A model generated the notes under the pieces. That model saw nothing but the letters and a program-made list of their open reading frames with translations, was not told where the DNA came from and did no database searches. DNA of 64,000 nucleotides from Bryoerythrophyllum caledonicum (Eukaryota; Streptophyta; Bryopsida; Pottiales; Pottiaceae): assembly GCA_963971425.1 (NCBI GenBank), contig OZ020516.1:37746199-37810198 (forward strand), written 5' to 3'. The number at the start of each line of letters is the position of its first letter. Within the stretch, counting starts at the first letter, position 1. A program made the position numbers and the translations under genes. Shown in pieces: positions 3,334 to 63,600 of the stretch.

Positions 3334-6117
3334 TTAGGTTTTTCTTCGGATATCCTTGGATCCTCCATGTGCTACTCTTGTTGGAATGTCGGTATCACTT
3401 TCAGTCTCATCATCAGGGGCGTACACATCACGCTCCCACTCATCACTGCTCTCCATATCACTGTATTCACGGCTTGAAGCAGCACTATTTGGAACATCTT
3501 CATCGCTATCTGGATACTCGTAATCGCTGTCTGAATCATATTCCGGCCCTAGATCGTCCATTGTGGTTATATCATCGTCGTCGTCAGAAAAATCTGAAAC
3601 TTCTTCAGAGTCGTAGTCACTTAGCTCGGTTGCCACTGGAGCAGGAGGCTCTGGAGGTGCCATGCCAGGATTCTCCTCCAACCAACGAGCTCGCTCAGCC
3701 GCCTCACGCCCCATGTCCGCCCGCACTTCTCTCAGCTCCTTCTCCCATTTCCGTATTTGATCGTTTAACGAACCAATGGATTGCTCATGCTTCGATTTAA
3801 GAAGGGCCTGTCAACAAAGAGGAGATCCGATGGGTTAATAATGGCAACCACAATGAAACGCTCTATGAAAGTCAAAATGTATCCAAATGCCCAAGCAAAG
3901 AGACTTCGAACCTTTACAAATAGAAATAGAAATCCCCTATGCAACCCAACTACCCTATGATGTAGGACGAAGTTCTTCCTTTCCGTCGGTATATAGATTG
4001 GGCCCTTTGAGGTTGAATGAGCTATGGCAACGGGCATTTCAGGTTAAAGAGCAAAAACACTTGGAAAAGTATCCTCAGAGAGTGGAAGGAAAGAACTTTA
4101 CCTTTCGTTTGTTAAAATTCTTGAATATGATGGGAATGTCAATTTTTGGCCGCTTGTAGTTTCTCCCACGCCACATGATAATGGTGGTCCCTTGATGGAT
4201 GTCAATGACAGTGCCGCCGCTGAGCCGCTCCAGCGTCTCGCCCATCCCTTTGATTTTTTCCTTGGGAAAGTTGTCACAGTCGATCCGGACCGTCTCGTGT
4301 TTCTTCCAGTGCATGTGGATGTTCTGTATGGTCCCCCCGTATATGCCTCTCCTGCCAACCGGCACGTAATTCTTGTTCTTGTACCCGAGCTTCTTCAACG
4401 CGTGCAGTTGCTCTGCGGTGACAATCTCCGGGTCCGGGTCAGGCTCCGGCAACGGCGGCAGCTCGAACTTCTTGAGCCGCTCCTCATGCAATGATATCTT
4501 TTTCTTGCACTGAGAAACCACCGTCAGATAAGGTTGAGTAACATGTAATCTGACTGCCTCCGAGGCATGTTCTTGCTAAAAATGTCAGTGTGTCATCCAC
4601 TAGACCAAAACAATCTAGGCTGATGAAAGTTATAAGCGACAATTGAGTTCTTCGTGAAGTCACCCAACGTTTTAAATAAGATACCGCGTCTCTGATTTCT
4701 GATACTACTATTTGTTCACTCGTAACTCTTCATAGCAGATTGATATGGAAGAACTTGGTGGTATCTCAACTCAAAGAGCTTGGCGGTCTTTCAGCTCAAC
4801 TTAGCCGCCTTTAAGAATGAAGAAGGAGAGGTCATGCTGTACCATTAACCTTAGCTGATTGAAGATACTTAGGGCTGATTTCAATTATTTAACTCATGAC
4901 CTCACTTCACAAACAACCGAGACAACACAGGTTACAGACACAACCTTCGCGATCCGCCAGACCAATGCCTGCTCGGGTGTCATGCTGAGTTTCCTCAGCT
5001 TCTTCGCCAAACGGATTTGCCGAAGCTTGAGACGAACCGTCTTGGCTTTCTTCTTCTTGGCGGACCTCTTCGCTTTCTGCTCAGCTTTGTTATATTTGGT
5101 CTTGAACCGAATCCCACCTGAAAGAAATGGGCTCACGGACGATGAAGGCCGCAAAAAGCCTCTGCGACTCCATGCCAGCTCAGAACTATCAAACGCAAGC
5201 CCATTGTACTCCCTTACATATCCTCGCGTTTGCAGAAACAGCTCTCGCCGTCCAGTTCCCAGTAGAAGGTGCTGTTCTACATTGCTGCAAAACCTCAGAA
5301 CTCATGGCATTCAAAATCATCCACTTGCCAACACCATCGACTTCCAGTCAATGAAGAGATGCTGATTCCACCTATCCTTGACATAGCAAATCGATCACCA
5401 AAGATCACAACACATATGACAACAAACCCTCTCCCATAAACCCTAAACCCTAAAACCCTGATCAGAAGTTATTGCAGCAAAACTTCATAAACTCGTCATT
5501 CAGAACCTTCCAAATTGCTTATTCCGCCCTACTCTAATCAATGAACAAATGCTAGTTGCACCTGTCCTTTAACAAAAGAATCGATCACCAAGACCACAAA
5601 ACGCAGAACAACAAAGCCTCTCCCATAAAATGTCCCATAAACCCTATTCCGATACCAAATTAAAAATGTAGACTGCTATGGATCAAGCAGACGTTCCACT
5701 TGCGAACACCGTACTACTCCAGTAAATAAATAGATGCTGATTACACCTATCCTTAACACCTAAAAATCCACCACAAAACACATCACCTTAAACCCTATTC
5801 CCAAAGCCCTAAACCGCTGCCAAATCGTAACAAAAATGAACCAGCAGGCACTTCACAAAACCCACATGATCTCTGTACGCAGTCCCAGAATGCAAGTCCG
5901 CATCAAAGTAGCGATGGCCAGATCCACCACACCTGATTACAACAGTAGACGGCGCAACAGCAGCGGGGGAAGAAGAGAAGCCAGGCTGAGCATGATCGCA
6001 CGAAGAGGGAAGCCTGGATGCGGAAGGCTCGAGACGGGCCAGGAGCGCGCGCGAGAGGTATCGGGCGGACGCGAGGAGCGAGGTGGAGATAGGCCGCGAT
6101 GATGATGCCCCGGCCAT
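3334..6117 (-). CDS. CRM-domain RNA-binding protein, organelle-targeted, 4 exons
   Basis: Reconstructed exons are 6,117-5,862, 5,117-4,945, 4,509-4,102 and 3,807-3,334 (436 residues; splice phases agree). The first exon encodes a Ser/Ala/Arg-rich leader starting MAGASSSRP, typical of a mitochondrial or plastid transit peptide. Exon 2 is very basic (KKKKAKTVRLK). Exon 3 carries a complete CRM (CRS1/YhbY) RNA-binding fold, with VPVGRRGIYGG, NIHMHWKKHETVRI and a TTIIMWRGRNYKRP ending. The last exon adds a helical segment (KWEKELREVRADMG) and a strongly acidic Asp/Glu/Ser tail. The single CRM domain with a long C-terminal extension matches the small plant CRM family to which Arabidopsis At3g25440 and At4g13070 belong. 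Members of the wider family act in organelle intron splicing or ribosome assembly; the target here is unknown. The exon 1 donor at 5,861 is the least certain boundary: it was chosen for phase, and a small missed exon in the 740-bp first intron is possible. Confidence 0.88.
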
Positions 6118-25094: not shown

Positions 25095-26035
25095 CTTATA
25101 CACCAGAAGAAGAAGAAGAAGAAGAAGAAGAAGAAGAAGAAGAAGAAGAAGAAGAAGAAGAAGAAGAAGAAGAAGAAGAAGAAGAAGAAGAAGAAGAAGA
25201 AGAAGAAGAAGAAGAAGAAGAAGAAGAAGAAGAAGAAGAAGAAGAAGAAGAAGAAGAAGAAGAAGAAGAAGAAGAAGAAGAAGAAGAAGAAGAAGAAGAA
25301 GAAGAAGAAGAAGAAGAAGAAGAAGAAGAAGAAGAAGAAGAAGAAGAAGAAGAAGAAGAAGAAGAAGAAGAAGAAGAAGAAGAAGAAGAAGAAGAAGAAG
25401 AAGAAGAAGAAGAAGAAGAAGAAGAAGAAGAAGAAGAAGAAGAAGAAGAAGAAGAAGAAGAAGAAGAAGAAGAAGAAGAAGAAGAAGAAGAAGAAGAAGA
25501 AGAAGAAGAAGAAGAAGAAGAAGAAGAAGAAGAAGAAGAAGAAGAAGAAGAAGAAGAAGAAGAAGAAGAAGAAGAAGAAGAAGAAGAAGAAGAAGAAGAA
25601 GAAGAAGAAGAAGAAGAAGAAGAAGAAGAAGAAGAAGAAGAAGAAGAAGAAGAAGAAGAAGAAGAAGAAGAAGAAGAAGAAGAAGAAGAAGAAGAAGAAG
25701 AAGAAGAAGAAGAAGAAGAAGAAGAAGAAGAAGAAGAAGAAGAAGAAGAAGAAGAAGAAGAAGAAGAAGAAGAAGAAGAAGAAGAAGAAGAAGAAGAAGA
25801 AGAAGAAGAAGAAGAAGAAGAAGAAGAAGAAGAAGAAGAAGAAGAAGAAGAAGAAGAAGAAGAAGAAGAAGAAGAAGAAGAAGAAGAAGAAGAAGAAGAA
25901 GAAGAAGAAGAAGAAGAAGAAGAAGAAGAAGAAGAAGAAGAAGAAGAACGCCGGTCTTGGAGGGACCGGCGTATATAAAGTGTCTGTTCGCACCACCACT
26001 AAGACCATGCCCACCAGGCAAGGACTTATACACCA
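25095..26035 (-). mobile_element. Hairpin/(TTC)n retroposon, copy 3, with giant tail
   Basis: Perfect 11-bp direct repeats CTTATACACCA (25,095-25,105 and 26,025-26,035) flank the insert 25,106-26,024. Read on the minus strand, the body (26,024 down to 25,949) is the family sequence GTGGGCATGGTCTTAGTGG...CGAACAGACACTTTAT. It ends in a perfect 8-bp stem (CGCCGGTC/GACCGGCG, 25,949-25,971) and then continues directly into (TTC)281. The tail therefore began as the element's own 3' repeat. Confidence 0.88.
25106..25948. repeat. (GAA/TTC)281 microsatellite, 843 bp, uninterrupted
   Basis: A pure GAA run on the plus strand, with no interruption visible in the given sequence. It opens long poly-Arg, poly-Leu and poly-Phe reading frames that are not genes. 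It arises from the 3' tail of the retroposon at 25,949-26,024. Long GAA/TTC tracts can adopt triplex structures. Confidence 0.97.
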
Positions 26036-28699: not shown

Positions 28700-30740
28700 T
28701 GCCATTTTAATCAAAGCATTTCATACTCATCATCCATTGCCATTTTCCAAGCTCTTCAGTCGGAAAACATCATAGCTTCAACATATCTGATTGGTTCTTC
28801 TTGTCTTGTTCACTCTTCATTTGTTTCAGCTCTGAAATCTTGTAAGCATGTGTCATCAACTCCTGAACCTCTGTCATTGAATCTCGTATCCTCTGAATGC
28901 AAATCTTCAATACTTTTGAACTTTGTATTCTTTCCCTCGCTTTCAATACTTGAAGTGTCCATTTCCCCATGCACAATAATGACCATATTATCATTGCCCA
29001 AATCCCCCACTGATACTAGTTCATTACTATCTTTGGTGAGCTCATCTAGTGTGCTTCTACCATTTTTGGTAAGCTCAACTGTAACTCTTTGTTGACTCCC
29101 ATCAAATGTCAAAGGAACCACTAATATAATTGTCTTATCCATCAGGTTTCCGCTATTATCAAATGTATCTTCATTTGTTTCTACTCTTGTATGAGTAGGA
29201 CGAGAACTTAAACATATCTCCGGGTTAACTCTAATTCATCTTGCTTTAAATCATGAAGTTCTCCCACCAGTTCACCAAACATCATGTTATTGCTCTTCTT
29301 CACCTTCTTTGTCTCTAGATCCCGAATTCTATATGCGTTGCTAGTATCACTATATCCGACAGATAAAACCTGCTTGCTCTTAGGTTCCAATTTGCTTCGT
29401 GCACTGTCTCTAACAAACAAATATGCCAAGCATCCAAAAACCAAGTAATATTCCACTCAAGGTTTTCTTCCAAATATTTGTTCAAAAGGCGTCTTATAAG
29501 TACACCTGCTATTGATTGTCTTGTTCAATACATGAACTGCCCAGTTGACTACTTCCGACCATAACTTGACTAAAAGCTTTTTAGCATGTAACATGCTCAA
29601 CAAGTAGACAATAAGAGAGATGCACACTACAAGATGTTTGGAACATTTTGGAGTTTTTGAAGCTAGAGAGAAGGTAAATAAATTATGTCTTGGGTGTATG
29701 TTTGGAAAACAACACAGGAAGTTAGAGTACGTCATCCTCTCATGCAATAATTGTAGAGGAAGTCTCTAAATGACTCTCATTTGTGTATACAACATTTGTT
29801 TCTGAGTTTGTACGTAAACCTACTTCAATCAAGAGCAAGTTTTGCCTCCCTTTCCAAAATCCTTCAAGAACTATCTTCACATCATCATCTTATATTCGTA
29901 ATTCACACTTGTTTCTAGTACTTATATACGTGAGCCCAACTTCTGTAGCTTGACCAATAGAGAACAAGTTGCGCTTCAAATTTAGCACATATAATACTCC
30001 TTTGAGTACTCCTTTCTTCTCAATTTCATTAACCATTCTTTGAATCTCTATATCACCTTTTCCTTCTATAGAAAGACTGCAATCATTTGCTACTATAATA
30101 GAGTGTTGCCCTCTTTCTAAGGTTATCATGGTAGCAAACCAATCTTTCTGATCGGCCATATGTTCCGATGCACCACAATCAGCATACCATGTTCTTGAAT
30201 CACACTGTGCTGTGAATCCACATGATAACATAGATGCACAACAATCATGTTCATCATTGGAACTACCAAATATGAGTCCAAGATTGCTTATCTGATCAGC
30301 AACATTTGTTGAGCTCTTTGCCTTTCCAACTTGCTTGAAATTTGGTTTGAGTGGCTCTGGACACTCATCGGACCAATGTTCCTTCTAATTACCACAATTG
30401 AAGCACTTCCTCATGGTCTTCAAGTCTTATATGTACTCCTCATCACATTCCTTCTGTTGCGTCTTGTTGAATATTTCTCCTCTTGAAGAACTTGGAAGAA
30501 ATCTACCATTTTTGGTGAAGAATGTTGAGTCCTTGCTTGATACATCTCCTCCTTGTATCTTATGCACTAGTTCATGTCTAAATAGTCTGGGAGACAAATT
30601 TGTCAAACTCTTGGACACAGAAGTCATTTGGAAGAATTGGTACCATCAGCAATCATTTGCCTCTAGTATGGTAGTGGATCTGTTATCTAACATTGATATG
30701 TCCATTCTTACAAGAGGGGTTTTTTTCAACAAATTTTGAC
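28700..30740 (-). pseudogene. Copia retrotransposon ruin (gag end, protease, part of integrase)
   Basis: Read from 30,740 downward: gag tail; CCHC knuckle CFNCGN-stop-KEHWSDEC (about 30,380-30,420); protease region TWYADCGASEHMADQ (about 30,160-30,200), in which the catalytic D-S/T-G has become DCG; NLKRNLFSIGQ; late integrase VVNWAVHVLNKTINSRCTYKTPFEQIFGRKP (split around 29,457-29,560); and the post-integrase FGCLAYLFVRDSARSKL...VGYSDTSNAYR (29,208-29,440). No reverse transcriptase or LTRs found. Stops and a deleted integrase core show it is dead. It is a different lineage from the 31.8-38.6 kb element. Confidence 0.8.
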
Positions 30741-38554: not shown

Positions 38555-38589
38555 CATGCAAGGACAAGCAGTCCACGCCATGAGGTTAC

Positions 38590-39202
38590 CTCTTGGTGGT
38601 GAGGATCCGAGTCATGGAATTGGACGTGTCACCGAAAAGCCAGTTCCTGAGGTTGACAGCCATGCCTTGCTTGGCGTCCTCCACGAGCTCTTCCATCATA
38701 TTGTGAATCTCCTCAGCTCGAGCGCCCTTGTAGGTTGCAATGCGCTTGGAGGTGAGCAATCTTCGCACTTGACGCCAGTAACGTCCGTTAGCCTCAGAGA
38801 TGTTCTTGTTCTTGTAGTCGTCAATTATGATAACATAGACTAAGAACTGAGGCCTGTTCAAAATCGTGATGTCAAGTATTTGGAACAGCTCCTTGGACAC
38901 AGCATCCATAGGGACCACGACAATTGGCACAAAATCTCCAGCTTGGCCAGCCAAAAAAGGATTAATAAACCTAGCAAAATCATTTCGACTGCAAAATTTA
39001 TGAGATCCATCCCACCTAGGCGGAGATACATGAGTCTCCCGTACTTGTTTGCCAGGCTCCGGAGAACATGATATGGCAGACCCCCAGTCAAGGCAAGAAC
39101 GTTGCCCACCATTGGCCAGGCGAAAGGTCTCGGTGGGGGGCAGAAGCGCCTCCGCACAACAACGAAGAGCTCTACCAAAGTCACGGACAACTTCGCAAGC
39201 AA
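38590..39202 (-). pseudogene. Cytochrome P450 N-terminal half, truncated
   Basis: Two pieces, 39,202-39,016 and 38,941-38,590, join over a 74-bp GT-AG intron. They give the P450 proline hinge (CPPPRPFAWPMVGNV), then HVLRSLANKYGRLMYLRL, VSKELFQ, ILNRPQF and the helix-C motif GRYWRQVRR. They end at NSMTRILTTKR before a GTAACC donor. This is the membrane-proximal half of a plant A-type (CYP71-clan) P450. The I-helix, ExxR and heme-cysteine motifs are absent: the Copia 3' LTR stands 35 bp beyond the donor. No ATG or full membrane anchor is evident at the start; an in-frame stop lies upstream near 39,248. Probably a dead gene, although a functional continuation beyond the Copia insertion cannot be fully excluded. 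Confidence 0.78.
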
Positions 39203-40530
39203 ACCAAGAAGATTTGTTCTAAAATTAGAGTTCTACAATAAACCCAAATATTCTTACACTATCTCTTAATACAATCAATACAAAATCATTTAACGATTAT
39301 TAACCTCTTTGAAATTCTAAATTCTCAAAAACTCAATTCTTCTCTTTGTTAAACTTCAAGACAATCTCTTTAAAGATAAACATATGAATATAAATTAACT
39401 TGGAAGTTGTCCATTCCAACAATATCTACTTTCAAAAATACAAATTCTTTGAAAATATAATAAAATGCAAGATGTGGGAGAAAATTTTGGGCTTCAGGGC
39501 AGTGCATGGAGCACTATTATAGTCTAATAGATGGTCTCTTTTTAGAGAAAACACAAAGCAAGAGCTTATTCCTTAAACATCGGGACGACCAAAATCTGGT
39601 TGATGGAAGAATGTAAAATGCTCCCACATGATGATAAAACATTACTTTCATCCAAGTTTTTGTGAATGTGTTGTCAATGAGTGCAGATACCCATCATAGA
39701 GTGTAACTTTTTCTCTAAACAATAAAATGTTTGTGACTTGGAATTCAACCCTACAGGGTATTTTAGAAACTTCTAGCTTTAGCTGTAAATCTCGATTTGA
39801 GTCATTGAAATGATATTTTTTGAAATTGAGTCCAACGAATGAAATGAAGTTGATCAAATCTAGTTTCCAATCCAATTTGAAAATTTGAAAAATACATAAA
39901 ATTGAGTACAATAATGTACACCTTCACTGAAATTATCATATTTTTTACACAAAATTTGTATATGATATGCATATTCTTCAATTTTTCTTCAGAAAATCAC
40001 AATAATTTGAATATTCACAAAAAAATCACAAGATTTTTTTGACATGAACCAAACATGTCTTGTCATCTCTGAAAAATGAAATAAAAATATTTCCGCTTAT
40101 ATTTGATGAAGAATATAAGCGGAACTTACAAAACTTACAAAACTTACTTGTATACCACACACGTTAAAACACAAATCGTGTCCCTAACCCAAACCTCAAG
40201 TCACCTCCCTCACAACCAAAGAGAGAGACAGAGGCCCACTCCAAACCAACACCCCCATTAGAGCGCAGATCACACTGCACCATCCGATCCTTCCAAGCCA
40301 TCATCGGCAATCAGAGCCGTGTAATACGCCAAACGAACAAAGCACTTTGCGAAAGTGGACTACATGCCCACGTATTTTATAGAGGTAATCAATGAAAAAA
40401 TGGATCAGTTGTAACCTATGACATCAGTCTCTTCGATTGCTGTACACAAATCCGCTTGCACATTTTCCAGGGCACTCTCCTCTAAAAGGCGAAGAGTGAA
40501 ACAGTTGACAGCACCTCTCTGGATATTACA
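39203..40530. other. Intergenic with an eroded copy of MITE B
   Basis: No gene. The minus strand of about 39,640-40,125 resembles the interior of element B (6,370-6,960). Both contain the same translated-like stretch (NFKLEWKLDFINF versus IFKLDWKLDLINF) and a block reading ATATAAG, GGAA, then TTTATTTCATTTTTCAGAGAT. Its TTAA termini are not recognisable. The eIF4G 3' untranslated region should occupy the last few hundred bases. Confidence 0.5.
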
Positions 40531-43500
40531 TCAATCTTCCTCATCCTCTACTTCCTCCGGAGCTGTTGCTAACCACGTCAACCATTTCATTACCCCCCTG
40601 ATTGCCTGCCACATCACAACAACAACCCCGTCAGACTTCCCCTACCCTCAAACATCCTGCTGCTCTCAAATGCCGCCCCTCAAACCGCCACCCAACCAAT
40701 TCACCATTCACAACAACCAAATATATCTACCCGGAAACATGGGCCCTATGGCACACGCCGTCACCACGTTTTGTAAACCAGGTCATATCATGCAAACCTA
40801 ACACCCACACAACGCGCATTTTTGTTCATCACTCGAGCCCTCACACGTCTAGTGGAAAATGCATTCACCTTGTCTCTTCCTGGTGTTGAATCTCTGACAT
40901 CATCTCGCCAGTTCAAGTACGCGTCCTCCGAGATTACCTACCCAAACCCACCGCACAATTCGTCCATGCGTCAGTCCACAACACATTGGACAACTTGGAC
41001 AGCCACACATCTGAGCAACACATGCATCCGGATGCGCTCGGGGCAATTAGTTCAAGTACCTCTTCCCTGTAGAAGTTGGCGAATAACTTGCTCATCAGAC
41101 CTAGGGGGTGACCACACTCATTCGCAAATAATTGTATTGCGATAATGTCTGCACATCCACATATCGAGGTTAGATACCGCACTCATAAAGCTTGGGCAAT
41201 CCTCATCCATCAACTATCTTCAAACTTGACTCCTCCACATGCTAAGGATCAAGAACAACGCCCCACGGACCCCTCAAGACCGTTGTGCACCGTAGCTTCT
41301 AACAATTCCCACTGCTACGAATGATCCTTTTCCCTGCTCACATCATTCTCAACATTGTGCAACCGCACGCTACGCGACCAACCTGCTATCTACGGACAAC
41401 CAGTTTCGCTCGCGCAAAGCACAAAAGGGCAGCGAATACTCACATTGAAGTTGGTTATCAACGGCGGCTCTCCCCTTCCCTGAAGCACACTTCTTCAACA
41501 AAGGTGCATATGTTTTTGTGTCCACTTCCACATTCGCCAACTGCACCAGACAACCACCCCAAACACTATCAGACCAACCATATTGCACCCACTCCACCCT
41601 GCGCAAACCAGGGTACCGGAGGTCATCCTACCAACGCCACGCCGCACCAATTCAACACGATGCTCTCACCGCCCAAACCAGCAGCGTCCTACGGCTAAGG
41701 TCGCTACTAACATCACATACACCACACATCGTGAACCCCATTCATCGCATATCCATCCGTCTCCGTTGGAAGATGATCACCTTCGATCAGCCAATCACGG
41801 AGACTATATCACATGCAATACCCTCACTAAGTTGCCCAGCATCTGCATGCCACTCCACTCAACATCTACCATCAATCGAGCACGCCGATCCACTCATCCA
41901 CGTAACCCAACCCACGCAACCCTAGCTGTCCTGCTTACCGTAAAATCGGCCGACTTTGGTTCTGGCACGGCGTGTCTCAAAACTTGGGTCATGATCATCC
42001 GTAAGAATGAAGGGTCCGACGATGCACTAGGTACATTTTTCTGACACAGCAAACAACCTACGGTCAGCTTTGCCCATCACCTCAACCGTACAAACTGCGC
42101 CAACTCAAATGCCAAAGCTCGTCCTTTAGGTCATCACCACCTCGCCCGCGCCACACCATTCGGGCCCCGACCTTCCACGGCGGGCCGAGGAAGAACGAGG
42201 GAGCGACTGGCGCGCACGCATACCAAAGTAAAGACCCGCAGTCCCACAGACTCCACAACTCACCCAAATACACCATATCACAAAAACTAAAGTCCAGTGA
42301 AATTACCTCAATCCATTTAACAAGATCCGGTACTGCCTCTTTCCTGTCAAGCGAGTCTCTAACGTGAGTCTCTACAGGGAACATCTGGTAAAAAAACAAG
42401 GAATGAAAACATCAGCTCCATGTCGAATAAACACTCAACTACCCGCTCGATCCACTTGAATCGCCAGCCCACATCTTCCCATAACCACACTATGCAAAGC
42501 ATACAAAGCACGTGTCCACGAGAAACAGGGACGCCATTTATCCCACCGGATTCAGCTTCTGCAGGTTCGTTCCTCGATAAAATACCTCCAGCTTCGAACT
42601 CCTATTCTTCTCAGAAGGTGACACCAAATCCTCCAAATCCACACCGGAACTATTGTAAGCATCCACCATCTGCTCTTCTCCTCTCTCCTTCCGGTATATC
42701 TCCAGGACGGCACCGAAAATCATCAGCGCATGACCTTCCTCTTTAACCTCTCCCGGACTTTCACCAGCCACCTCTAACAACCTCCCTACTTCGCCCAAAC
42801 TAAATACTCCAGAACACGCTAATCTACCTAAGATGACTCCCAAAAACTCCGGAGCTTTCGGAACATCCACTACTGTGTCTATGAATCTTGATAGCACAAG
42901 CTCGATCCTGCATCCAAACAACCACTGTCAGCATCGCCCGACCTCCACTACTCACGCCATCACCATTGAACACACAAAACCACGCTCGCCTCCATGCACA
43001 CAGCTGATCCGAGACAGAAAAAATTAAATAAAAAACAAAGCCAAATGAGCGAACGACGAAGAAACCATACCCCTTCTCCAGCTGATTGCGTGACAGAAGA
43101 ACAGGATCTAATCTGTGAAGATGGAGCAGCAACTTCACCAGCAAATCTCTTTCTCTGTCCTTCTTCTCCAGTGACTCCGACACCCACGTACATACCATCT
43201 CCGGGTGCTGCTCCGAAGCTTTCAGCTCCTCCACGCACAGTGCCGCTTCCTTTAGGTCCGTTACACTGCAACCGAACCGTCCACACCGCACCTCATCAAC
43301 GGCAGCCAAACACCTCCTCGAGCACAACATCGCAAACATCCAAAGCACATTCCATACACCATGCTTCCACGCCTCCTCAAACTGTCATCGACCCCGACTC
43401 CACACACACCAACCCATCCCAAAATAGCTCACCTGTAGTATTCGCTTATCGTTGATTCCCACTTCTTCTTCAGCTCCTCTTTGCTCAAAACCACCGGTGC

Positions 43501-46500
43501 CGTCGATGGACGACCCGACACCACTGGTGCCGCCGACTCGGCCCGTTGCGCCTGGAAGCTGCTCGAAGACACGCTGGTTGAACCAAGCCTCTCTCCTGCT
43601 CTCTGCTGCTCCGGTGTGCTCCGCAAGTCTCGCAGACCTGGGCTCAGCCTGTCACCCCCCATCGATCTGTCCAGTATCGGCCTTTCAGCTGATCGAGGCC
43701 TATCCGCCGATCGAGGCCTCTCCGCACTAGACGGCCGCAGTGGAAGCTCCTCCCGATTCCCAAAAGCGTGTGATCTGTCTTGACCGAACCCCAACACAGG
43801 TCCCGAACTCAACCGACGCATATCAGGACCCGACGTCATCGGTGCCGCATCCGACAGCGCACTCCGCCCACCGCTCAACGGTTGTTGCCGTACTCCTCCC
43901 CTACCCAGTCCGCCCTGTGGACCCAGAGTGATGTTCCCTTCTTCGCCAGCCCTCTGAGACAAAGGCATTGGAACTGGCCGAAGATCCATCGAAAGAGGTC
44001 TATCCTCCATCCGAACGTCCTGCACGAAACCGCCAGCGCCGCGCAATCCCCCTTGCGGAGATGGTGCCCTCCGCATACTGTTCATCGGCGGTCCTGTACA
44101 CCAAACACGCACATCGTGTCACTCATGCAACCCACCCACAGGGGTCACTCAGTCCACCCCTTAACACACCACTCAAGAAGCTCCAAACACAGCTCACTCA
44201 CTCGGTCCGCTCCGACCTAGCCTACAAGCCCAGATGTTCGCAACACACGGAAGGGGCGACCACGGTTCATGCCTCAGCACAAACGCACTCACACCTCGCA
44301 CACGACATACAATCAAACGGATCACTACGGCTCCACCGGCATCATCGCCTATCCGTTCCCGAGCTGCGGTGAGAACTAACCAACCAACCACTCGTGACAA
44401 TACAGACTGCTACGCATCAAATCACACACAAAACTGCTTCAGGGCCACGATGAATCATCATCTCAAGCTTACCAACCCCCATCGGCCCAGAAGAATACAT
44501 CGGGGAAGGCGGACCTCGCATGCCGAATTCCGGACCCGGCCCCATCCTGCCCCGAGCAGACCCTCCCCCCATGCTAGGACCGCGCCCCAGACGATCCCCA
44601 CGGGCGGCCTGCTGCCTCTCCTGGACGGCATCTCTGTGCACCTCGTCGATCTTCTTCGGTCCGTCCACCTTCCTCCTCTCCTGCCACCCGTTTCTCCGAA
44701 GCTCCATGCAATCCTTCAACATGAACCTCAACCGCGACGAAAGCTTCGAGTTGTTCGAAAGGGTCTCCATCCGTCTAAAGTACGCGTCGATGTGCTCCTT
44801 CGCCTTGTGATGGTCGATGATTCGACCAATCGTGCTCATCAACTTGCACAGAGCCTCCACATCTTCCTCATCCGGATTCTGAATGTCGCCTAGCAGCTTC
44901 TTGATACACTCGTGCATGATCCTCTCCGTCAGCATGCTCTTCTTGTACAGCTCACCAATGAAACGGATGTTCCCCAACATTCGCCTTCGGGCCTTCAGGC
45001 GCTTCTCCTCCCGCTCTTCCGGAGTCATCTTTACCTCCACATGCTCCTCCTCATCCTTCTCTGCCTCCTCCTGTTCCCTTTCCCCACGCTCGAACTCTTC
45101 CTGGCACTTGTTCAGCAGGACGCGCTTGAAGGTGATCTTCTCGTCGTTCTCCGTGAACTCCGGCAGGTCTACGGCAAGCTTCGCGCAAAACTGCGCGTAC
45201 ATCTCGCAAAACGTCGGCTCCATCAGTGCCTTGTCAAAGATCTGCGAGATCACACCCGTCAGCGTTGTGGCCGAATCGATGTTCGCTTCCTGCACCTGGA
45301 CGAACAGCTTGTCGAAATTCTGGGGCGTCAGCTTGTTCAGGATCCCCTTGATTAGCCTTTGCTTCGCTTGCTCCTCATCCGACGGCTTCCCCACCTCATA
45401 TCGATTCTCCGCCTTGTGGATTGCAGGCAGAGGGGTGCGAGGTGACGGGATCAGCCCCGGACCCTTTCCCGCCGCCATCGGTTGCCGAAGCCATCTGTCT
45501 CCATCCACACCATTCGGGCTGCGCCCAGGAGGACCAGAAGCCATGAAATGCGGCAGGGGCACGTTACCGGGCCCTCGTTGAACCAACCCCTGAAATCCAG
45601 GCTGCCCCGGCATCCCAGGCCACTGCTGCGGCACCGACGAGATCAACCCCGGCTGCATCCCCTGTCCAGGCCGGAACCCGCCTTGCATTCCTGGCATGTC
45701 CATGCGTGCATCCCCAGGTTGGTTCCTCCCCGGAGAAGGAACTATTCCAGACTGCCTTGTCCACCGATCCTCGTCCGCTCCCTGCTGCATCCCGCTTCCT
45801 CTCCTCTCAAGTCTCTGTCCCCCGCCACTCGCCTGTCGGTCCACGTTTCGCGCAGGGCTTGTCAGTCCATCGACAAATAGCCTGTCCTTGTCCAGCAACA
45901 GATCGGCGATGTCATGCCTGATTTCAAAGTCAGGAGGAAATTCTCTGTTCTGCTCCCTGAACGTCAACAGAAAATCACGCGTGTACTTCCTATCACCGCT
46001 CTCCACGGCCTGGACCACCGCAATCGCTGGCGTCGGCAGCTCGGCGGCATCTTCCCAGTCATCCAATTCCTTTGGCACTGACTTGTCCTGGGCCACAGCC
46101 GAGTCCTTGGCATCATGGCCTGATGAACCTCCACCCGAAACCTCGCTCCGCTTCACCTCCACCGACTTCTTCTCCTCAGGTGCCTTGTATGCGTTATACA
46201 GATCAGCTGTGTTACCAGCTGCATCTGCTCGTGCAAGGAACTCTTTTTTTTTCTTCTTCCTGCTTCCCCCTCTCGGGCCCTCCTGCCCGGAATTCGCATT
46301 CCCGACCACTGCAGCCTCCGCTGCATCCATATCGTTCTCCAGTGCCTGCCCGGCCTCGCTCCCCTCCGTCGCCGAAACTCCAGAGGTACTGCTTAACAAC
46401 GGAGTCGACTCAATGTCTGACCCGGACTCATCCACTGCTGCTGTCACATCCGTGTCCAACCCATATGAATTGCTGGCAGTGGATTCGGCGTGCTCCAACG

Positions 46501-49500
46501 CTCTCAGCTTCGCACCATCATCTTCGTTCGTGCCCTCCGCACCCTCCGCCAGCCTGGACACATCCTTGCTCTGCACCCCATCGCTGCTGAACCCCATCAC
46601 GTCCACCGCTGCAGCATCCGACTGTGGGCTTGCCACCACAGCACCCACCTCAGTAGCCTGCGGGTCCTCCTCGGCGGTGTCCAATACAACAGCACACACC
46701 TCCTCCGCAGACTCCACCTTCTCGGCACCCACAGGTGCGCCCGCATCTGGATGTCTAGGGACTACGCCGGACTCAAGGTCGCTCTGGACAATCTCTTTCT
46801 GTCCTCCATCGCTCTCCTCCGCAGATTGTGCATCACCTGCGGGGACACCCAAGTCCTCGACTGCCACCACTTCACTCTCTAGAGTTTCCAAACAGCCTGC
46901 GCTGTGCCCCTCCGGCAAATCCGTCGACAGTTCCCGCGACTCTGCTGCCGCGGGGATGTCGACTACCACCGATGGTTCTTGCTCTGAGCCTGCCGCATCG
47001 GAACGCGAATCTTCTGAGGCCTTGACGCCTGGTGCACCATCAGACTCCAACAATTCAAGGCTGCGCTGCTCAACAACCTTGGCATTCTCCACCTGCACGT
47101 TGCTCACAATCGGTCCTGTTTCTTTTGCCACCTCCTCCGCCTCAACAACCTCTCCATCAGGCGTCACGGAAGCTGCTGACTCAGGCGCAGCCCTTCCGGC
47201 CTCTGCTCCCACGTTGTTTCCCGCATGTTTCACCGCCTCGTCATCGTCGCGACCCAAGCTGGCTGCAGCGGAGTTTCCAGGAGCTTTAACGTCTTCAGCA
47301 CCGACCTCTTCCGCAGCTCGAACTTCCTCTTCCTTGGCGCCGGCAGGCTCGTCCTTCACAAGCATCGAAGACAGACCGCTGAACGCCGTGGAACCATCTG
47401 CGATCAATACAGACGCATCTGTTTTCAGCGAGCTATCAGACACCACACGCGCGCCTTCCTTCTCCTCTCCTGGACCATTCTGCACAGCATCGGGCTCGCC
47501 TTTCACAGCAACGACCCCTCCGCTCCCTTGAGAATCCATGCTCTCGGACCCCATATCTTCTGGAACGCACAACCACCACCATGTCAACACCCGACCGACT
47601 CTCGAAACCACCCAACACATTCCAAAGCCACGCTATCGTGCAACGCGCTGGAACGTAAACATAAACCGCAACTTCAAACATAAGTACGGGACTCTAACTC
47701 ACACCCACGCATACCCAGGTGCACTCTCCAAGCGACCATGTGCCTGTCAAACCTACAAATGCACTCCACTTCCAAGTAGGCTACTGCTCCCATCCATACC
47801 TTGATGAGGGACCTTGTTAGCCGCTTTTATGTTGCCCGACTTGGACTCTTCCGCCTTAATCCCCAAGCTCTTCACAGGCGCGTACACTGCCGTGCTGCTG
47901 TGAGCTCCAGAATGAGTCCTCTGCAACCCTGGTTTCAGCCCACCGCCAGCAACCGGACCAGCTGGTGAAACAAGCTGATCCAAATTCCTCTCCACCTCGG
48001 AGACTTGCAGATTCGCCGGATGTGATGGATATTGCTGCTGTTGCTGCTGCTGCTGCCGTTGCCTGTCCTTCTTGCTGTTCTTTCTCGAGGTTCCCTTCGC
48101 AGCATCTACTTTTACCTTCTCTCCAAAAGTTCCTGCACCGCCTGTGCCAGGAGGAGTCATCATTTTCGGACTGACACCACTTGCATTCGTAGAGCCTGTG
48201 ACCTGCTTAGGAGGAATAATAGTAACACCAGCCCGATTCATCACAGGAACTGAGGCCCCGGGAGAGCTTAGGCTGCCCACTACACCCAGATATTGCGGAC
48301 CAACACTCGCACTCACAGATTCTACCCCTGTCGATGCATGTCCATTTGCACCGTTCGATGACCCTTCGCTACTTGCTTCGCTGGCTGCACCCGGGGTGGA
48401 ACCCGATGCTTCCACATCCCCAAACTTGAATGCAGGGGATAAATTCCCTGCATTCGGCGAGGGAAGCACAGAGCTCGGAGCTAAGGGCGCAGCAAGCGAA
48501 ACAGAGGGCACGATCAGGTTAGGCGGCCTCCCGTTGGAGGCGATCGGAGAGCTCATCCCCGCAGGAGGTGCGATTGCTCTAGGGTTCCCGATTACAGCAG
48601 GGATGCCTGGAACCGGAGCCGGCGGCACCATGACCGGTGCCATAAGTGGGGCCACAGGAGGCGTACTCAACATCTCACCTAGACTCGGCCCGGAGTTTGC
48701 AGACCCTAACGGAGCAACGGCCACGAGTTGAGGACCAACTTTTGGACCAGCCGGCACCGGACCGGTTCCTGAGTGTCCGAACCCCACACCTGGCCCAGAG
48801 TGCCCAGGATTATACTGGCTGTACCTCACAGGCGGAGAACTAGAGAGAGGTGCTCCAGTGAAGCCACCTCCCTTTGGCAACCCTTGTTGCTGGAAAACCG
48901 GATGATAATAATACATACTGGAAGGACCCATATGGTGTGACGGGTTGTATCCTACAGGGGCCCTCGGTTGAATCAAACCATTGCTAGCGGGACCCCTACC
49001 CGCGCTTCCGAGACTAGATGGAGGCGCAATGTCTGCGCTCTCCTTCTTTACTGAGTCCAGTTTCAGTTCCTCGTGGGTGTTTGGATCCACGATTTTGATC
49101 GCCCTGCTCTTTGGCTTCTGCGGCATGAATGGGCTTGTGGGAGGAGGTCCATACGGCACTGACATGCCCCCGGGTATTTGCCCGGCCACACCGCCCATAC
49201 TCGGTCCTAGCTGATGTCCCATTGCAGGCATGGGTTGTGCAGATAATGGATTAGCCATCTGGCTACCGATGGGAGTACCTATCATTGGCGAATTGTGGAC
49301 AGAGGCCTGCATCATAGGTGGCGGATACTTCAGGCCCTGGTTCAGGCTTCCTTGCACCATCCCCTGTTGCTGTGGCATCGGCTGCTGCTGCTGCTGCTGT
49401 TGATGGTGTTGGTGCTGTTGATGCTGATGTTGGTGCTGCTGATGCGCCAGAGCTTGCTGCTGATGCTGCATATGTTGGGCAATCTGCGCACCATTACGTC

Positions 49501-52500
49501 AAACAAAAGGTTACCAAACGAAACTCCGCCAGAAACCACGGACACACCCCACAGCTCTGCCATCAAAACTACCGCTCTTCTTCACACCACCTGGCCGCCA
49601 ACACGGCCCATCCAGCCGCCTGCGCTTCCCCCATGTCGCCATGACGGATTCCAAAGACTACGCTTCTAACAACAACTTGTCCCGCAGGCTATCTAAGACC
49701 AAGAAAAATACTGGGCAGCTTCCCTCGATCCGCCGGAGTCCAAGCACAAGCAAACATCACGACCCGCTTTACCGCGCAAACACCCCAGACCCATGTCCTC
49801 GCTCCTAATCTGCGTCGCTCATGTTCACCTACGATGCCACCGTGAGTGGATACAGTTTAAGCCCACACCTGGAGCATGTGAGGCGGCGGAGCTTGCATGT
49901 GCAAGTTGTTCGTCTGCGGATGTTGGGGATACGGCGGCGTTTGACCTAATTGCTGGGGAGGAGGAGCTTTACCCGTCGCTCCCATTGGTATTAATCCCTG
50001 TTGAGAACTCATGCTCGCTGGCATGTGTTGCGCCATTGTCGATGCACCTTGTTGCTCCGTTGCACTCCCCATGTTTCTCATATTAACCACCTGCCACACC
50101 ATCACAACCCACACCAGTTCATCGCACAAACAACACAGTACTCGCCATATGTAGTGGCCCCGAATCACATGTTAACGGAGGAAGAGAATCATGCAGCCAG
50201 TGCAACATCACCCTCCAGATTCGTTCATCATCAGCACAGGGGCCTGAACACCGGCGATGAAGACCCTATTCGCCACGACTCCGCCAAAAGGACAAGAAGC
50301 ACGCGCACAGGCTGCCTTTGCCGTGCAAACATGAAGAAAAAAGGAAAAAAACTTGCACTTCACATGCATCGAGCACGCAGAAACTGCTACAGTAGCCCAT
50401 GTTCGCCGGTGGACGCGGAGGCCAACCCTCCGTCATGCTACCACTCAGAAACTCTTCCCACACAGAGGCACCCGACCTACCTGTGCATTCTGTTGCTGCC
50501 CAGATGCCGCCACCTGTGTCCTTGGCAACGGCCGCTCGAAACGTGCCTGGGCTCACAACATCACCAACATCATCACAATCATTCCCAAGATGCGCAAACA
50601 CACCACGCAAGCCTCTGCTACGTCCAAGTAAACAGCTCCTACTCTACGATCATTCCCAGCAGCAACCCTCAGACCACCCTCACAACGACAGAAACGACGC
50701 TGTGTACCAACCTGTTCGCGTTTTTGCTCGTCCAGATTCGGCGGAGCGGAATTGGTACGTAATGGATACTGTGCACACAAACAACCACACCGCACCCGTC
50801 AGCAACCACGCAAACAAGCCGATTGCGAAAAGACCACCTACCTACACACTGCCACCGACCACCCTCTCTCCGATCCACAATCAGCTGGGCCACGTGTACC
50901 ACGCCAAAACTTAACCAAAATCACGCACAACAAACCACTCGTCTTCACCGCTGCCAACACTCACCCACCGTCCCTGCCCTATCCCACTCAAAGCCTATGC
51001 TTCTATAACTCAACCAAATTTCTGCTTACAGGAGTTGGAGACGGTTTTCCGCTCGTTGAAACGCCGCCAAAGCTGGGCTCAAAGCTCCCAAACTGGAACG
51101 AAAACGGATTTTGCGATGATTGCGAACCTGGAGGTGGTGCACCTGCACACGAAAACCCCGCTCCCCGCAAAACCAACTTAAAATGCTATCATCCCTTAAA
51201 CTGCTGCATAGCCGCCCACAAATCCTGCGCCCATCACCATGTCGCTGCTCGCCAGAAAGACGGCCAAAGGATTCACAATTCTAGTTGGCGAGGTCAGTCT
51301 GAACGAGGTGCTGCGCAGTTGAAGAGAGAACAAGAAGCAACACCTGTCCCACTGAACCATCCGACCCGGCACGGCGATTGCTACTTGGGCCAAACAACAC
51401 TGACCACCATCGCCACAACCATGATCACAAGAACCAAATAGGATCGCTTACCAGAGGTTGTGTCGGTTTCAAAACCGGCGGCTACGCTAGCCGGAGGAGC
51501 AGGAGGTTTACTCGTCGGAAGTTGCCTCGCAATACCCGACGCTCCGAGCCCAGCGTTTCCGGATGCCCTAGCAGTCATTGTGCCCTTCAGATCTGTACTC
51601 TGTTGTGAGGCTCCCATCTGAGAGTGCTGGCTCGCGTCCGCAGACCCCACACCTTGCCGCACCACTGTTGCCAACAATCAGAAGACCGTCAGTCTTTCTA
51701 TGCCACCGGATCCTCCAGCGAAGTACAAGGCCCTTCCTATGACTTATCGCCACATGGTCGACCGACGACTATGCCGTGACTCCCACCGCTTGCAAGCTTG
51801 CACAAACCTAACCACAAACAGAGCAAGCGCACAAAATGCAGCTCATGCGAACTAGTGCTCACCTTGCTGTTGCTGAAGGTTGTAGTGCTGGGGTAGACCC
51901 GGCTGCTGCACTCTGCTGTTGATGCCTTGTTCCAAAGGCCCTGCGCCTGGAGCGCCTCTTCCAGAACCAGAAGGTCCATTTGCTCGCTTTCCACTGCCAA
52001 AAGCAACCCACTCAAGAACAGGTGAATACCCACGTCGAACATACAGCGAGGACGGAAGGTCCAAGCACCCGAGCAGAGGGGAACGACGGATTGCCGACCC
52101 AAACCATCCCGCATCGAACGACCACGGAAGTCACACTAGTGCGTGGCTCCACGAACTCTTCATTCTAAGCTGACCCATATCCTGCCTCGCCCGTCCCTCC
52201 AAGAACACAATGCCTAGTCGCACGTGCTGAGAGGCCCTCGCGCACAACGACGACCTCTAGCATGCACCACGCAAACCGGGCCCAGAAGACAGACCAGTCC
52301 AGAACTACGCACTCCTTGAACTGGCCTTCGTCACAACCCTAGCCAAAGTTTACCGCGCTATGTGGCGAGCACACGGGGCAGCGCACCCACTCCAATCATC
52401 CCCCCCCCCGTCTAGCCAGCCGAGTCCAAACGATTGCCATCGCTGGACCCGAACCCCCGCCTTCTCACGAAAACCTATGCACGGCCCCCTCACAACCTAG

Positions 52501-53100
52501 CTCGACACTCACGTACCCATCTACTACCACAGCTTCACGTTCCCCCCTCCCTGGTGCGATAACGAAATTTTACCATCAGGATCGCCAATAAGAACTCCAA
52601 AACCCTACCACCCGTGGTCAGAGATGCCGGTTGAGAGAACCGCCCCGACTTTCACAGGCCGTAAGGCTCGCGGACGACCAACACGTCCCTACCTCCTGCG
52701 ACAAAACCCTAATAATCTCGAAAAGACCAGGATTGCCTGCACAAACGTCTCCCCCAGGCGAGGATTGCAGGTCGTCCACGACTGCCACCGATCGCAGACC
52801 ACCATAACAAACCGGGCCCAGGCGCTACTACGGAACCCGAAAATCAAGTGCATGCGAGGCTTACCCGCGGTTGGTGGAAGCGGCCACGGCAGTCGGGCGC
52901 GCTGCGGACACGACGGAGGCAGACGGCTGGGGCGGCCCCGCGCCAGAAGGGGCGCTGCTGAAGGGCCCGGGCCCTCCGGCCTTCACAGAAGAAGTCGTCT
53001 GACCGCCCCCGCCCCGCGAATACCCAGCACCACCGCCCGCCCTCCCAGCCTTTTTGAGCTGTGCCTCGCTCCGGTCTCCCTTGCCTTGGTAATGGGACAT
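40531..53100 (-). CDS. eIF4G: Translation initiation factor eIF4G with MIF4G, MA3 and W2 domains, 18 exons
   Basis: Scaffold of the eIF4F cap-binding complex; binds eIF4E, eIF4A and eIF3 in the cytoplasm. Exons: 53,100-52,865; 51,993-51,863; 51,664-51,452; 51,142-51,030; 50,768-50,712; 50,546-50,481; 50,090-49,869; 49,483-47,800; 47,559-44,473; 44,093-43,433; 43,265-43,071; 42,907-42,547; 42,384-42,307; 42,040-41,939; 41,540-41,444; 41,148-41,060; 40,937-40,869; 40,605-40,531. All GT-AG, all phases agree, 2,511 residues. Start MSHYQGKGDRSEAQLKKAGR and the RTNSAPPNLDEQKREQ block are plant eIF4G hallmarks. A Gln/His-rich tract opens exon 8. The eIF4E-binding motif YTRDFLL is at residue 1,433. 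MIF4G spans about 1,640-1,865, MA3 about 2,140-2,368 and W2 about 2,369-2,511 with NWRDD, MKWLTWL and a C-terminal EEVEDEED. Longer than the roughly 1,700-1,800 residues usual in plants. Confidence 0.95.
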
Positions 53101-53601: not shown

Positions 53602-53801
53602 NNNNNNNNNNNNNNNNNNNNNNNNNNNNNNNNNNNNNNNNNNNNNNNNNNNNNNNNNNNNNNNNNNNNNNNNNNNNNNNNNNNNNNNNNNNNNNNNNNN
53701 NNNNNNNNNNNNNNNNNNNNNNNNNNNNNNNNNNNNNNNNNNNNNNNNNNNNNNNNNNNNNNNNNNNNNNNNNNNNNNNNNNNNNNNNNNNNNNNNNNNN
53801 N
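53602..53801. other. Assembly gap, 200 N
   Basis: Exactly 200 unknown bases between a (CT)n run and GCTCTCGTC. The round number suggests a placeholder, not a measured length. Confidence 0.99.
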
Positions 53802-53856: not shown

Positions 53857-54057
53857 TTAACCCTTGACCAATTAACCCTTGACATTAACCATTGATCAAT
53901 TACCCTTGACCAATTAACCCTTGACCAATTAACCCTTGACCAATTAACCCTTGACCAATTAACCATTGACCAATTAACCATTGACCAATTAACCCTTGAC
54001 CAATTAACCCTTGACCATTAACCATTAACCATTGACCAATTAACCCTTGACCATTAA
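53857..54057. repeat. Tandem array of a 15-bp unit TTAACCCTTGACCAA
   Basis: About 13 units, some shortened (TTAACCATTGACCAA, CATTAACC). The array runs into the left end of MITE D, whose terminus TTAACCCTTGTCCAA is a one-base variant of the unit. Confidence 0.9.
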
Positions 54058-54290
54058 CCCTTGTCCAATGCTATTTTTCACCCTCCATGAAAGACTTAAA
54101 CTATGAGAAAGATGGGCATCTATTGAGACAATGGCAACAAAAATAGGTGCCAGCATTGGTGAGCGACGGTGATTTCCGTGAATGGGGGTTGTGATGAAAT
54201 GTACCCTTTGTGTAGGTGTTGTTCTACATGATCTAGAATGGTTGTAGATTCTGGTTAGGCTGAAAAAGCTCATCAACCTTAAAGGGTTAG
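54054..54290. mobile_element. piggyBac-like MITE, copy D (short)
   Basis: TTAA at 54,054-54,057, body 54,058-54,286, then TTAG (a decayed TTAA). Ends CCCTTGTCC and complement CCCTTTAAGG match only at the tip. The interior around 54,197-54,235 (ATGAAATGTACCC, TTGTGTAG, GTTGTTCTAC) is shared with copy C at 7,244-7,285. That shared interior is the main reason for the call. Confidence 0.5.
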
Positions 54291-60661: not shown

Positions 60662-63600
60662 TCAAAATACAGTGTCCCGAGTGGTGTGGGACAGCACCGG
60701 AGAGCTGTAATCCAGTCCGTGTGCAGCCACCTGCAAAGAATTTCGACAACTCAGCAAGCGGAGAAGGCATGAATAGGACTGTTGAAATGGCGACAGCAAT
60801 TCTAATGGTTTTAGTGGCGCTCATATGGTACCCATACGAAGAACTAAAACGAAATCACTAACACAATCTCCTGCCAAATAGTACCAAAACCACATTCTAG
60901 AGTAATACGAGAATTAGTATCAAAACCACACGGTTAATTCGTGATTTGACCTACTTCTGCGGAAGCTTTGAAGCAATCAGAACGTATATCGAAGAAAAAC
61001 TTGTAAATAACTCTTTAGTGGCTTACCATAGCAGTCAGAGCAGAATATCTTTCCTGACTCAAATACAACGGCTTCCCTCTCCGCAACTCGATGTCCTGTC
61101 AAGAAAATTTGTTAGGGAAAAACATGTCAAGATTTGAAATGCAAATCGCATATAATCAAAAACACTGAATTTCATCTGCATAGAATACACGATGAATCAA
61201 GATTTCTTTCTTGACAACCGAGAGCAATACCTCTTCTCCAAAGGCATCCAGGTAGGGTGACGGCCACATAGTTTGTCGCTCGCACCGTTGCAAGAGGATA
61301 TTGGTCCTCTGAAAGAACAAAATTCTCAGTTAACAAAACTTTGAGTCGTTATTCGTCTCTAACAAGATGATTGCAGCAGCCCATTCAGTAACAAAAAATC
61401 CTAATACTAATTGCATCCAATAACTGGAATTCACGGTGGGAGACATACTCTGGCATCTTTCCGTTTGCTCTAAGAAGCACAGCAGAAAAAATAGATGGAT
61501 ACAATTCACAGGAAAACTTACGCGCAACATCAAAAACACGCCAATCCCTGCTCCGCAGACCATGGCATGCCTATAACACTCTCCTTGCCGGTTGACACTG
61601 TTACAAGAAGAAAATCATCTGAGAGCTTCAGTATTGAGCTCGCTCATCCATCAAGGGAAAGACTTTGAATCGGTAGAAGACGTAACATACAACCAGAAAT
61701 TGATTGACAAAGGAAGTGCAACTTCAAAAGTGCAGAGTAAGGGAAAAACCTGCAGCAAGGACGAGGACTGACTGCACAGCAAAGGGCTCCACACAAAAGG
61801 CACAAGGCTGGCCGATCAGGGACTGTATCACATCGAGGACACCGCTCTTTAACATATCTGCACAACAGACTCACAAAGTTTTAAAGAGCACGTTACTCAC
61901 TTGTACGCATCCTCTTGGCCCTTACAAACCCTAGACTCCATATTGCACGTTTAAATCATCTTACTGATTGAAAAAACACCAGTCAAGGGAAGAGAAGCAT
62001 TTGAAGGCATCAATAAGATCACCCAGAATAATCCTAAATAAACTGAAAGGAACGTAATGTCCTCCTGTCACCTGTTCAGAGGTACTGCTATTTCTACACG
62101 AGATACGTACCGCTGCAGAAGATCCTGAAATAAACGGGGTAACTGCATCATTCTGAATGGAGCAGCTGTTGTTAATCGTGGACCTTGACGAAAGTACCGC
62201 ACCCCTGTGTCAGTCTTCACATGTCTGCACCAACTTAGCACAAGGTTCTGAACTGCATCCTCCTCCAAGATATTCGTCAAAGTTGGAATACTGAATACAG
62301 TTTCTAATTCCTCCAACTCTTGCAGCTCCTGCAGCATCTGTCTCTCTACATCCTCTGAATTACTAGAAGAAGATGAACCTGTAGGAACCCCATGTGGTAG
62401 CTCCCACTGATGAGCCCTAGCAATGGGAAGTACTTGGTCTGAACCTGCCATCAAGTTTTGCAGCAGATAGCAGCGACGGAGAAAAGGCAGCGTCAAGCGC
62501 CTGATTACAACCAAAGGAGGACCCGCAGGTATAGGTGCATTTTCATCATCCAACTGGGGTTGAAGACATGTTCCAGCTAAATTGGAATGCACGGCCGCAA
62601 CGAAAGATATTGCTGATGGTGCCAATTCTGTGTCTAAAGCTAAAAACGCACCGGCTTGCGCTATAACCTGCAGCCAAGCCCATGAATGCCAGTTCAGCAC
62701 AAAGAAAGTGTTCCATACTAAGAAGTAAAAAGAGATCCACTAAAGAGATTAGGTTACAAAGGACCGCCACCAACGAACAGCAGTAGAAAATTCAACCTCT
62801 CACAAGTGCCATACATATTTCTAAGAATACAAAGACTAAGAGACTCTGAGAGGTAGTTTCACAAAGATGAAGCACCTGTTCAAATCGCTATTGTGTACAA
62901 AATGGTCCATTCAAAGTATACCATTCTTAAGAGCAGGCATACCTGAGTGACGGAAACCAAGTAAAATAGATGAACGAGGGCTGTAAATGGAGCTCCGTTT
63001 GCAGGGAACGGTAAAGGCAGGCAAAAGAGCAACCACAAGAACGAGGAGAAAGAATCGTGAACTAGTACTGGATCTGCCATTCTCTTCCAAAACTGTACAT
63101 CTGCCGCATCGTGTCCCTTATCTAGATACTGTAAAAGAGAAGAAAAATTCCCTGCATCACAACACCAATTGGTCGATTACATTAAGAACAACCGAATTAT
63201 AGAATCAATTTACCTTTTACGGGAGACAACTACATGTAGAATGCAGGAATAGCAAATGTAAACAAAGTGATTTAATGCGTTTTGTAAGTTACAACGGAAG
63301 TCCTCAATTTCAAACATATCCCAAAACGAGTATGTTAAAAACACTGCAGATATAATATAGAAACCGACCAAAAGATAAGGCATCGCAGGCCAACAAGAAA
63401 ATTTAGAGTGTTCAAAACTTCCAGTTCACATGTCCTCATGGAATTCACGTCATACAATCAAAGAAATACTTCACAATACTTGAGCTTCTTCCTTACCATG
63501 CAGTGCCTTTTCCGCAAACAAGTCCCTGGAGATGCCATTAGCGATAGAGTCCAGCAGCAGCTGCATGCCCCTCGCTCTCAGTAGAACAGCCTGACGACTC

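Follow-up and report, generated by a model that had tools for sequence, protein, structure and literature searches.

A plant-type eIF4G gene with a predicted DAP5-like W2/HEAT-3 tail in Bryoerythrophyllum caledonicum

The window analysed here, a 64,000-nucleotide stretch of Bryoerythrophyllum caledonicum DNA (contig OZ020516.1, positions 37,746,199 to 37,810,198), carries an eIF4G gene on its minus strand, with a coding span of 40,531–53,100. The hand-assembled model comprises 18 exons that run from 53,100 to 40,531 and encode 2,498 residues in a frame free of internal stops, and its 17 introns, all of the GT-AG type, are 122–871 bases long. Pfam searches revealed the domains MIF4G, MA3, and W2 in this order along the gene, with expectation values (E) of 4.2e-53, 2.8e-18, and 2.1e-15, respectively; with the shorter motifs included, the order reads PN1, PN2, eIF4E-binding region, MIF4G, plant-form H1-CT, MA3, and W2. 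The locus probably represents a plant-lineage (streptophyte-like) eIF4G in which the six final exons add an in-frame W2/HEAT-3 domain after MA3; the MIF4G-MA3-W2 order, which is thought to be ancestral and is missing from described plant eIF4Gs, would be kept here, and the W2 would form a docking arm, most likely for eIF2-beta. The exon borders were set by eye and by hand such that the frame stays open, and the start codon is presumed, having been picked through a resemblance to plant eIF4G N-termini. About 500 bases upstream of the start codon lies a run of exactly 200 N (53,602–53,801), probably a scaffolding gap, beside which a 15-base minisatellite of about 14 copies occupies positions 53,857–54,069.

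The original prediction had proposed six small minus-strand exons behind MA3, joined in matching phases and encoding a series of W2-like peptides, and all six were found at the coordinates it had given. Exon 13 (42,307–42,384) marks the start of the W2 in the exon model, and its opening ATG codon faces, in the alignment, a Leu that is internal in DAP5; it is followed by exon 14 (41,939–42,040), which is supported by the exon model and the DAP5 alignment, and by exon 15 (41,444–41,540), which is mostly diverged in the alignment. Exon 16 (41,060–41,148; IIAIQLFANECGHPLGLMSKLFANFYREE), exon 17 (40,869–40,937; VISEDAYLNWRDD), and exon 18 (40,531–40,605; KWLTWLATAPEEVEDEED), the last of which also holds the acidic C-terminus and the stop, were recovered by both Pfam and a splice-free scan of open reading frames (ORFs). 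An AG stands directly upstream of all six exons, a GT downstream of the first five, and the last ends in TGA; the listed peptides are present, and the phases join without a stop.

The PF02020 profile search that had been suggested as a check returned E 2.1e-15 with the W2 exons alone (57 bits, the cut-off being 30) and 3.7e-14 in a longer query, covering residues 90–167 of the 169-residue tail, from the final residues encoded by exon 15 almost to the C-terminus, and profile positions 2–79 of 79. Among the structures in the PDB, the tail ranked closest to the W2 of human DAP5/eIF4G2 (3d3m, E 2.4e-17, 66 bits), which aligned across residues 20–160, followed by eIF4G1 (4.3e-5, 26 bits), yeast eIF2B-epsilon (1.9e-4, best 24.4 bits), and eIF5 (0.018, best 17.9 bits). 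In the C-terminal core of the W2, 28 of 73 positions are identical to DAP5 and 23 of 73 to eIF4G1. Moreover, MA3 and W2 together are collinear with the DAP5 C-terminal structure 3l6a (5.7e-22, residues 2–340 of 349), the best solved match of the MA3-W2 tail, compared with 2.9e-9 (residues 3–344) for the eIF4G1 structure. The presence of a W2/HEAT-3 after MA3, unlike in published plant eIF4G, is thus upheld by the PF02020 match and by the DAP5 W2 and MA3+W2 alignments, and judging from the match to 3d3m the tail would adopt a HEAT-repeat fold. The presumed acidic/aromatic boxes 1 and 2 fall in exons 17 and 18, respectively. Both boxes had been anticipated, and the segments YREEVISEDAYLNWRDD and KWLTWLATAPEEVEDEED indeed line up with their counterparts in DAP5, eIF4G1, and eIF2B-epsilon, the DAP5 chain stopping before the acidic end. 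The label 'animal-type', which had been attached to this W2, is only partly apt: the domain is there, and it is nearer to DAP5 than to eIF4G1 by the bit scores and core identities given above.

Upstream of the W2, the gene carries plant-type features. By eye, PLRTNSAPPNLDEQKREQ in exon 5 (50,712–50,768) matches the 4G-PN1 consensus PARTSAPPNxDEQKRxQ with one residue more than the consensus, and IKIVDPNTHEELKLD (49,055–49,099) matches the 4G-PN2 consensus VKITxPxTHEELxLD at 10 of its 12 fixed positions, both consensus sequences being taken from PMC3352336 (papers are cited by such identifiers throughout). That source reports PN1 and PN2 as both retained in land plants and one or the other in the green algae it examined. 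A predicted eIF4E-binding site, RKYTRDFLL, lies at 45,965–45,991, and the only PDB match of this region at E up to 10 was melon eIF4G (5me5_B, 3.6e-5). The MIF4G/HEAT-1 domain (44,690–45,358; PF02854) ranked eIF4GII (human, 1hu3, 5.5e-61) and eIF4G1 (8e-61) ahead of DAP5 (9.5e-52) in the PDB, indicating that the gene is an eIF4G rather than a DAP5. On its 3' side follows the H1-CT motif in its plant form (RRKVDGPKKIDEVHRDA, 44,627–44,677), again a by-eye match to the consensus in PMC3352336. The MA3 match (PF02847) begins at the end of exon 10 (43,433–43,473) and continues through exon 11 (43,071–43,265; MA3/HEAT-2) into exon 12 (42,586–42,907), where, according to the exon model, Pfam, and the PDB alignment, the profile match ends, the remainder of HEAT-2 is encoded, and the linker begins. 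The assignment to a plant-lineage eIF4G, as originally made, is therefore supported by the PN1, PN2, and plant H1-CT motifs and by melon eIF4G as the sole structural match of the eIF4E-binding region.

Compared with known systems, the gene shares PN1, PN2, a KKYSRDFLL-type eIF4E-binding site, MIF4G, plant H1-CT, and MA3 with plant eIF4G as described in PMC3352336, whereas published plant eIF4G ends after MA3 and the present gene continues in frame into a W2. An end after MA3 is a description of those plants that have been sampled and is no requirement of function. It shares the MIF4G-MA3-W2 order and the nearest MIF4G relatives with animal eIF4G1/eIF4G3, but differs from them in its plant-specific N-terminus and in a W2 clearly less similar to theirs than to that of DAP5. 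Animal DAP5/eIF4G2, in turn, provides the best match for the tail but lacks the eIF4E-binding site (PMC9726905) that is predicted here, and its MIF4G is more distant than that of eIF4G1. The C-terminal domains of eIF5 and eIF2B-epsilon belong to the same W2 fold family and have the two acidic/aromatic boxes, but their similarity to the present W2 is lower. In eIF5 and eIF2B-epsilon the W2 is not known to occur in a MIF4G/MA3 context. A derivation of the present W2 from either of them is disfavoured, both being less similar to it than the DAP5 W2 is.

Considering that the exons of the tail are short and individually weak, and that the spliced product was chosen for its open frame, W2-like peptides could conceivably have been picked by eye from non-coding DNA. 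A control independent of any splicing choice was provided by scanning the window's 2,571 stop-to-stop ORFs (15 residues or longer, six frames) with known W2 domains. With the DAP5 W2, the top three of these ORFs hold exons 17, 16, and 18 (E 0.011, 0.11, and 1.1; next 3.6), weak singly, yet all three correctly placed. With the yeast eIF2B-epsilon W2, the exon-18 ORF ranked first (0.042), an unrelated ORF scored 0.61, and the exon-17 ORF was among those at E 1.3. This ranking, together with the Pfam (2.1e-15) and PDB (2.4e-17) values and the position directly after MA3, makes a chance origin highly improbable. The N-terminal half of the W2 is weaker, although a local alignment within exons 13–14 to DAP5 scored 55, while 1,000 shuffles reached at most 52, and codon preference trained on the upstream exons was best in the true frame for five of the six W2 exons.

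Several observations nevertheless weigh against the gene model or its tail. The ORFs of exons 13–15 were absent from the DAP5 W2 scan at E up to 10, the scan of the 2,571 ORFs with the human eIF4G1 W2 recovered none of the six exons and returned one unrelated ORF (E 9.9), and exon 15 is poorly conserved, showing little similarity. The codon score of exon 18 does not favour its true frame, although the better-scoring frame contains a stop. The donors of introns 12, 13, 16, and 17 score 3.1, 3.8, -0.6, and 3.6, values exceeded by 10 or more of the 11 donors upstream, and that of intron 16 stands at the 62nd percentile of minus-strand GT sites. The six W2 junctions are predicted from sequence alone, and the open frame is partly a matter of construction because the borders were hand-picked for openness; at the end of exon 9, for example, the first border led to stops and was shifted by four bases to the next GT.

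Intron 12 (42,385–42,585, minus strand, phase 0) lies at the MA3/W2 boundary. Read-through into this intron would add 15 codons before an in-frame stop at 42,540–42,538; this is the stop named in the original prediction, now located within the intron. Because homology to the DAP5 linker and W2 starts at the first codon of exon 13, and because intron 12 is in phase 0, exons 13–18 behave as one module. A split ancestral gene might therefore be envisaged, with eIF4G ending inside intron 12 and exons 13–18 forming a separate small W2 gene that starts at the exon 13 ATG, or both forms might arise by alternative retention of the intron. In keeping with such an arrangement, the read-through is short, the ATG that opens exon 13 is in the right frame, and intron 12 has a weak donor, at 3.1 bits and the 85th percentile among GT sites on the minus strand. 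However, that ATG is immediately preceded by a good acceptor, which contains a run of pyrimidines (TTGTTTTTTTACCAG) and reaches the 98th percentile, only 153 bases separate the intron stop from the ATG, and the DAP5 alignment crosses the junction, the Met facing an internal Leu. Furthermore, a crude scan for poly(A)-like motifs (AATAAA, ATTAAA, AATAAT, ATAAAA, and TGTAA) found 0, 0, and 0 sites within 153, 400, and 600 bases after the intron stop versus 1, 3, and 5 after the W2 stop; with a broader set of motifs, the counts were 2 in 446 bases and 6 in 632 bases, respectively. A split or the production of both forms is accordingly considered unlikely, and a single fused eIF4G-W2 protein is preferred, which would require intron 12 to be spliced in vivo. 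Retention of intron 12 would possibly yield a W2-less, plant-like two-HEAT protein. Angiosperm eIF4G C-termini presumably end near the point where intron 12 starts here.

For the function of the fused W2, the reported partners of W2 domains offer some guidance. Both eIF4G and DAP5 are described as binding Mnk through the W2 boxes, whereas DAP5, not eIF4G, binds eIF2-beta through them (PMC4402527), and MNK1 is also listed as a partner of the DAP5 W2 (PMC10746786). According to PMC9726905, DAP5 deprived of its W2 shows lower activity and no association with eIF2-beta, and a chimera carrying the eIF4G W2 does not fully substitute for DAP5. Plants are stated in a review (PMC3359775) to have no Mnk orthologue, so recruitment of Mnk by the present W2 is unlikely, and Mnk docking on it was disfavoured on this ground. 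The likeness to DAP5 is by itself no argument against Mnk, because the DAP5 W2 has also been reported to bind it; what places eIF2-beta ahead of the kinase is thus the reported plant Mnk absence and nothing else, which counts against the assignment. By analogy with DAP5, the present HEAT-3 may dock a lysine-rich partner from the pre-initiation complex, with eIF2-beta as the first, still tentative, candidate. In such a scaffold, the N-terminal site would hold eIF4E and the cap, MIF4G/MA3 would hold eIF4A and probably eIF3, and the acidic/aromatic surface of the W2 would form an arm on which lysine-rich segments of its partner dock; this partner would, as for DAP5, most likely be eIF2-beta and not Mnk. 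If Mnk is truly absent from this lineage, the gene would provide an outgroup that has HEAT-3 without Mnk, so that the original job of HEAT-3 could be asked about directly.

As for the origin of the W2, plant eIF4G is described without HEAT-3/W2 in PMC3352336 and PMC3850090, in agreement with the original statement that plant eIF4G is conventionally taken to end after MA3. In these papers the absence appears as a general trait of plant eIF4G, a view from which the present gene departs. Charophytes are not mentioned in PMC3352336, and PMC3850090 treats them with regard to PDCD4. No report of a W2 in a green-lineage eIF4G appeared among the listed matches from the open-licence literature, although such a domain may already be annotated in public protein databases. 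A common ancestor with MIF4G-MA3-W2 is called likely in PMC9467303, as seen in eIF4G and CBP80. Most simply, the three-HEAT eIF4G found here in the green lineage would be a retained ancestral architecture, which suggests an old three-domain scaffold with later loss elsewhere and not an animal invention.

Gain of the W2 within this lineage, through fusion to W2 exons taken from a paralogue (eIF5, eIF2B-epsilon, or 5MP), has to be considered as well, since the published surveys (PMC3352336, PMC3850090) are without a W2 in plant eIF4G and, according to PMC4176352, every plant genome that has been sequenced completely contains 5MP. The present W2 departs from two of these candidate donors, eIF5 and eIF2B-epsilon, in its higher similarity to DAP5, and a secondary gain appears improbable. 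eIF5 and eIF2B-epsilon are presumably present in plants too. Ancestral retention is, in turn, weakened by two points: the W2 of human eIF4G is taken in PMC5862402 as a sign of lineage-specific elaboration, and the case for shared ancestry with the animal W2 draws on similarity to DAP5 instead of a tree, because no other green-lineage eIF4G with a W2 is shown. A scan of one collection, of viral contigs, with the tail gave four pattern matches, none of them a relative, and for this reason ancestral retention is favoured rather than proven; a MIF4G scan of the same collection returned one locus with 28% identity, which was not used further.

A plant-type eIF4G with a W2 argues, against the reading in PMC5862402, for a three-HEAT scaffold that is old and was lost repeatedly. 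As the W2 is DAP5-like rather than eIF4G1-like, the eIF2-beta-binding version may lie nearer to the ancestral state. One speculative scenario, regarded as possible but doubtful, is that early green-lineage eIF4G was an all-in-one scaffold, joining the cap complex through eIF4E/eIF4A and, by means of a DAP5-like W2 that contacts eIF2-beta, the initiator ternary complex; animals would later have divided these jobs between DAP5 and an eIF4G1 with its W2 redirected to Mnk, and most land plants would have dropped the W2, possibly by no longer splicing the phase-0 intron at the MA3/W2 boundary.

In the rest of the window, eight other ORFs out of the 41 listed were scanned with Pfam, and four of the eight matched, a set of domains that would fit a nuclear genome of the green lineage. 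These comprise a stretch coding for a CRM (CRS1/YhbY) domain at 4,075–4,572 on the minus strand (PF01985, 2.5e-17), a stretch coding for a portion of a PRT6-type C-terminal domain at 62,071–62,739 (PF18995, 8.6e-20), a retroelement Pol beta-barrel domain at 29,893–30,384 (PF22936, 3.8e-22), and a cytochrome P450 fragment at 38,589–39,218 (PF00067, 1.4e-5). In addition, a perfect (AGA)n array occupies positions 25,105–25,948, with 281 copies over 844 bases and 100% matches, a length and purity that are unusual among trinucleotide repeats.
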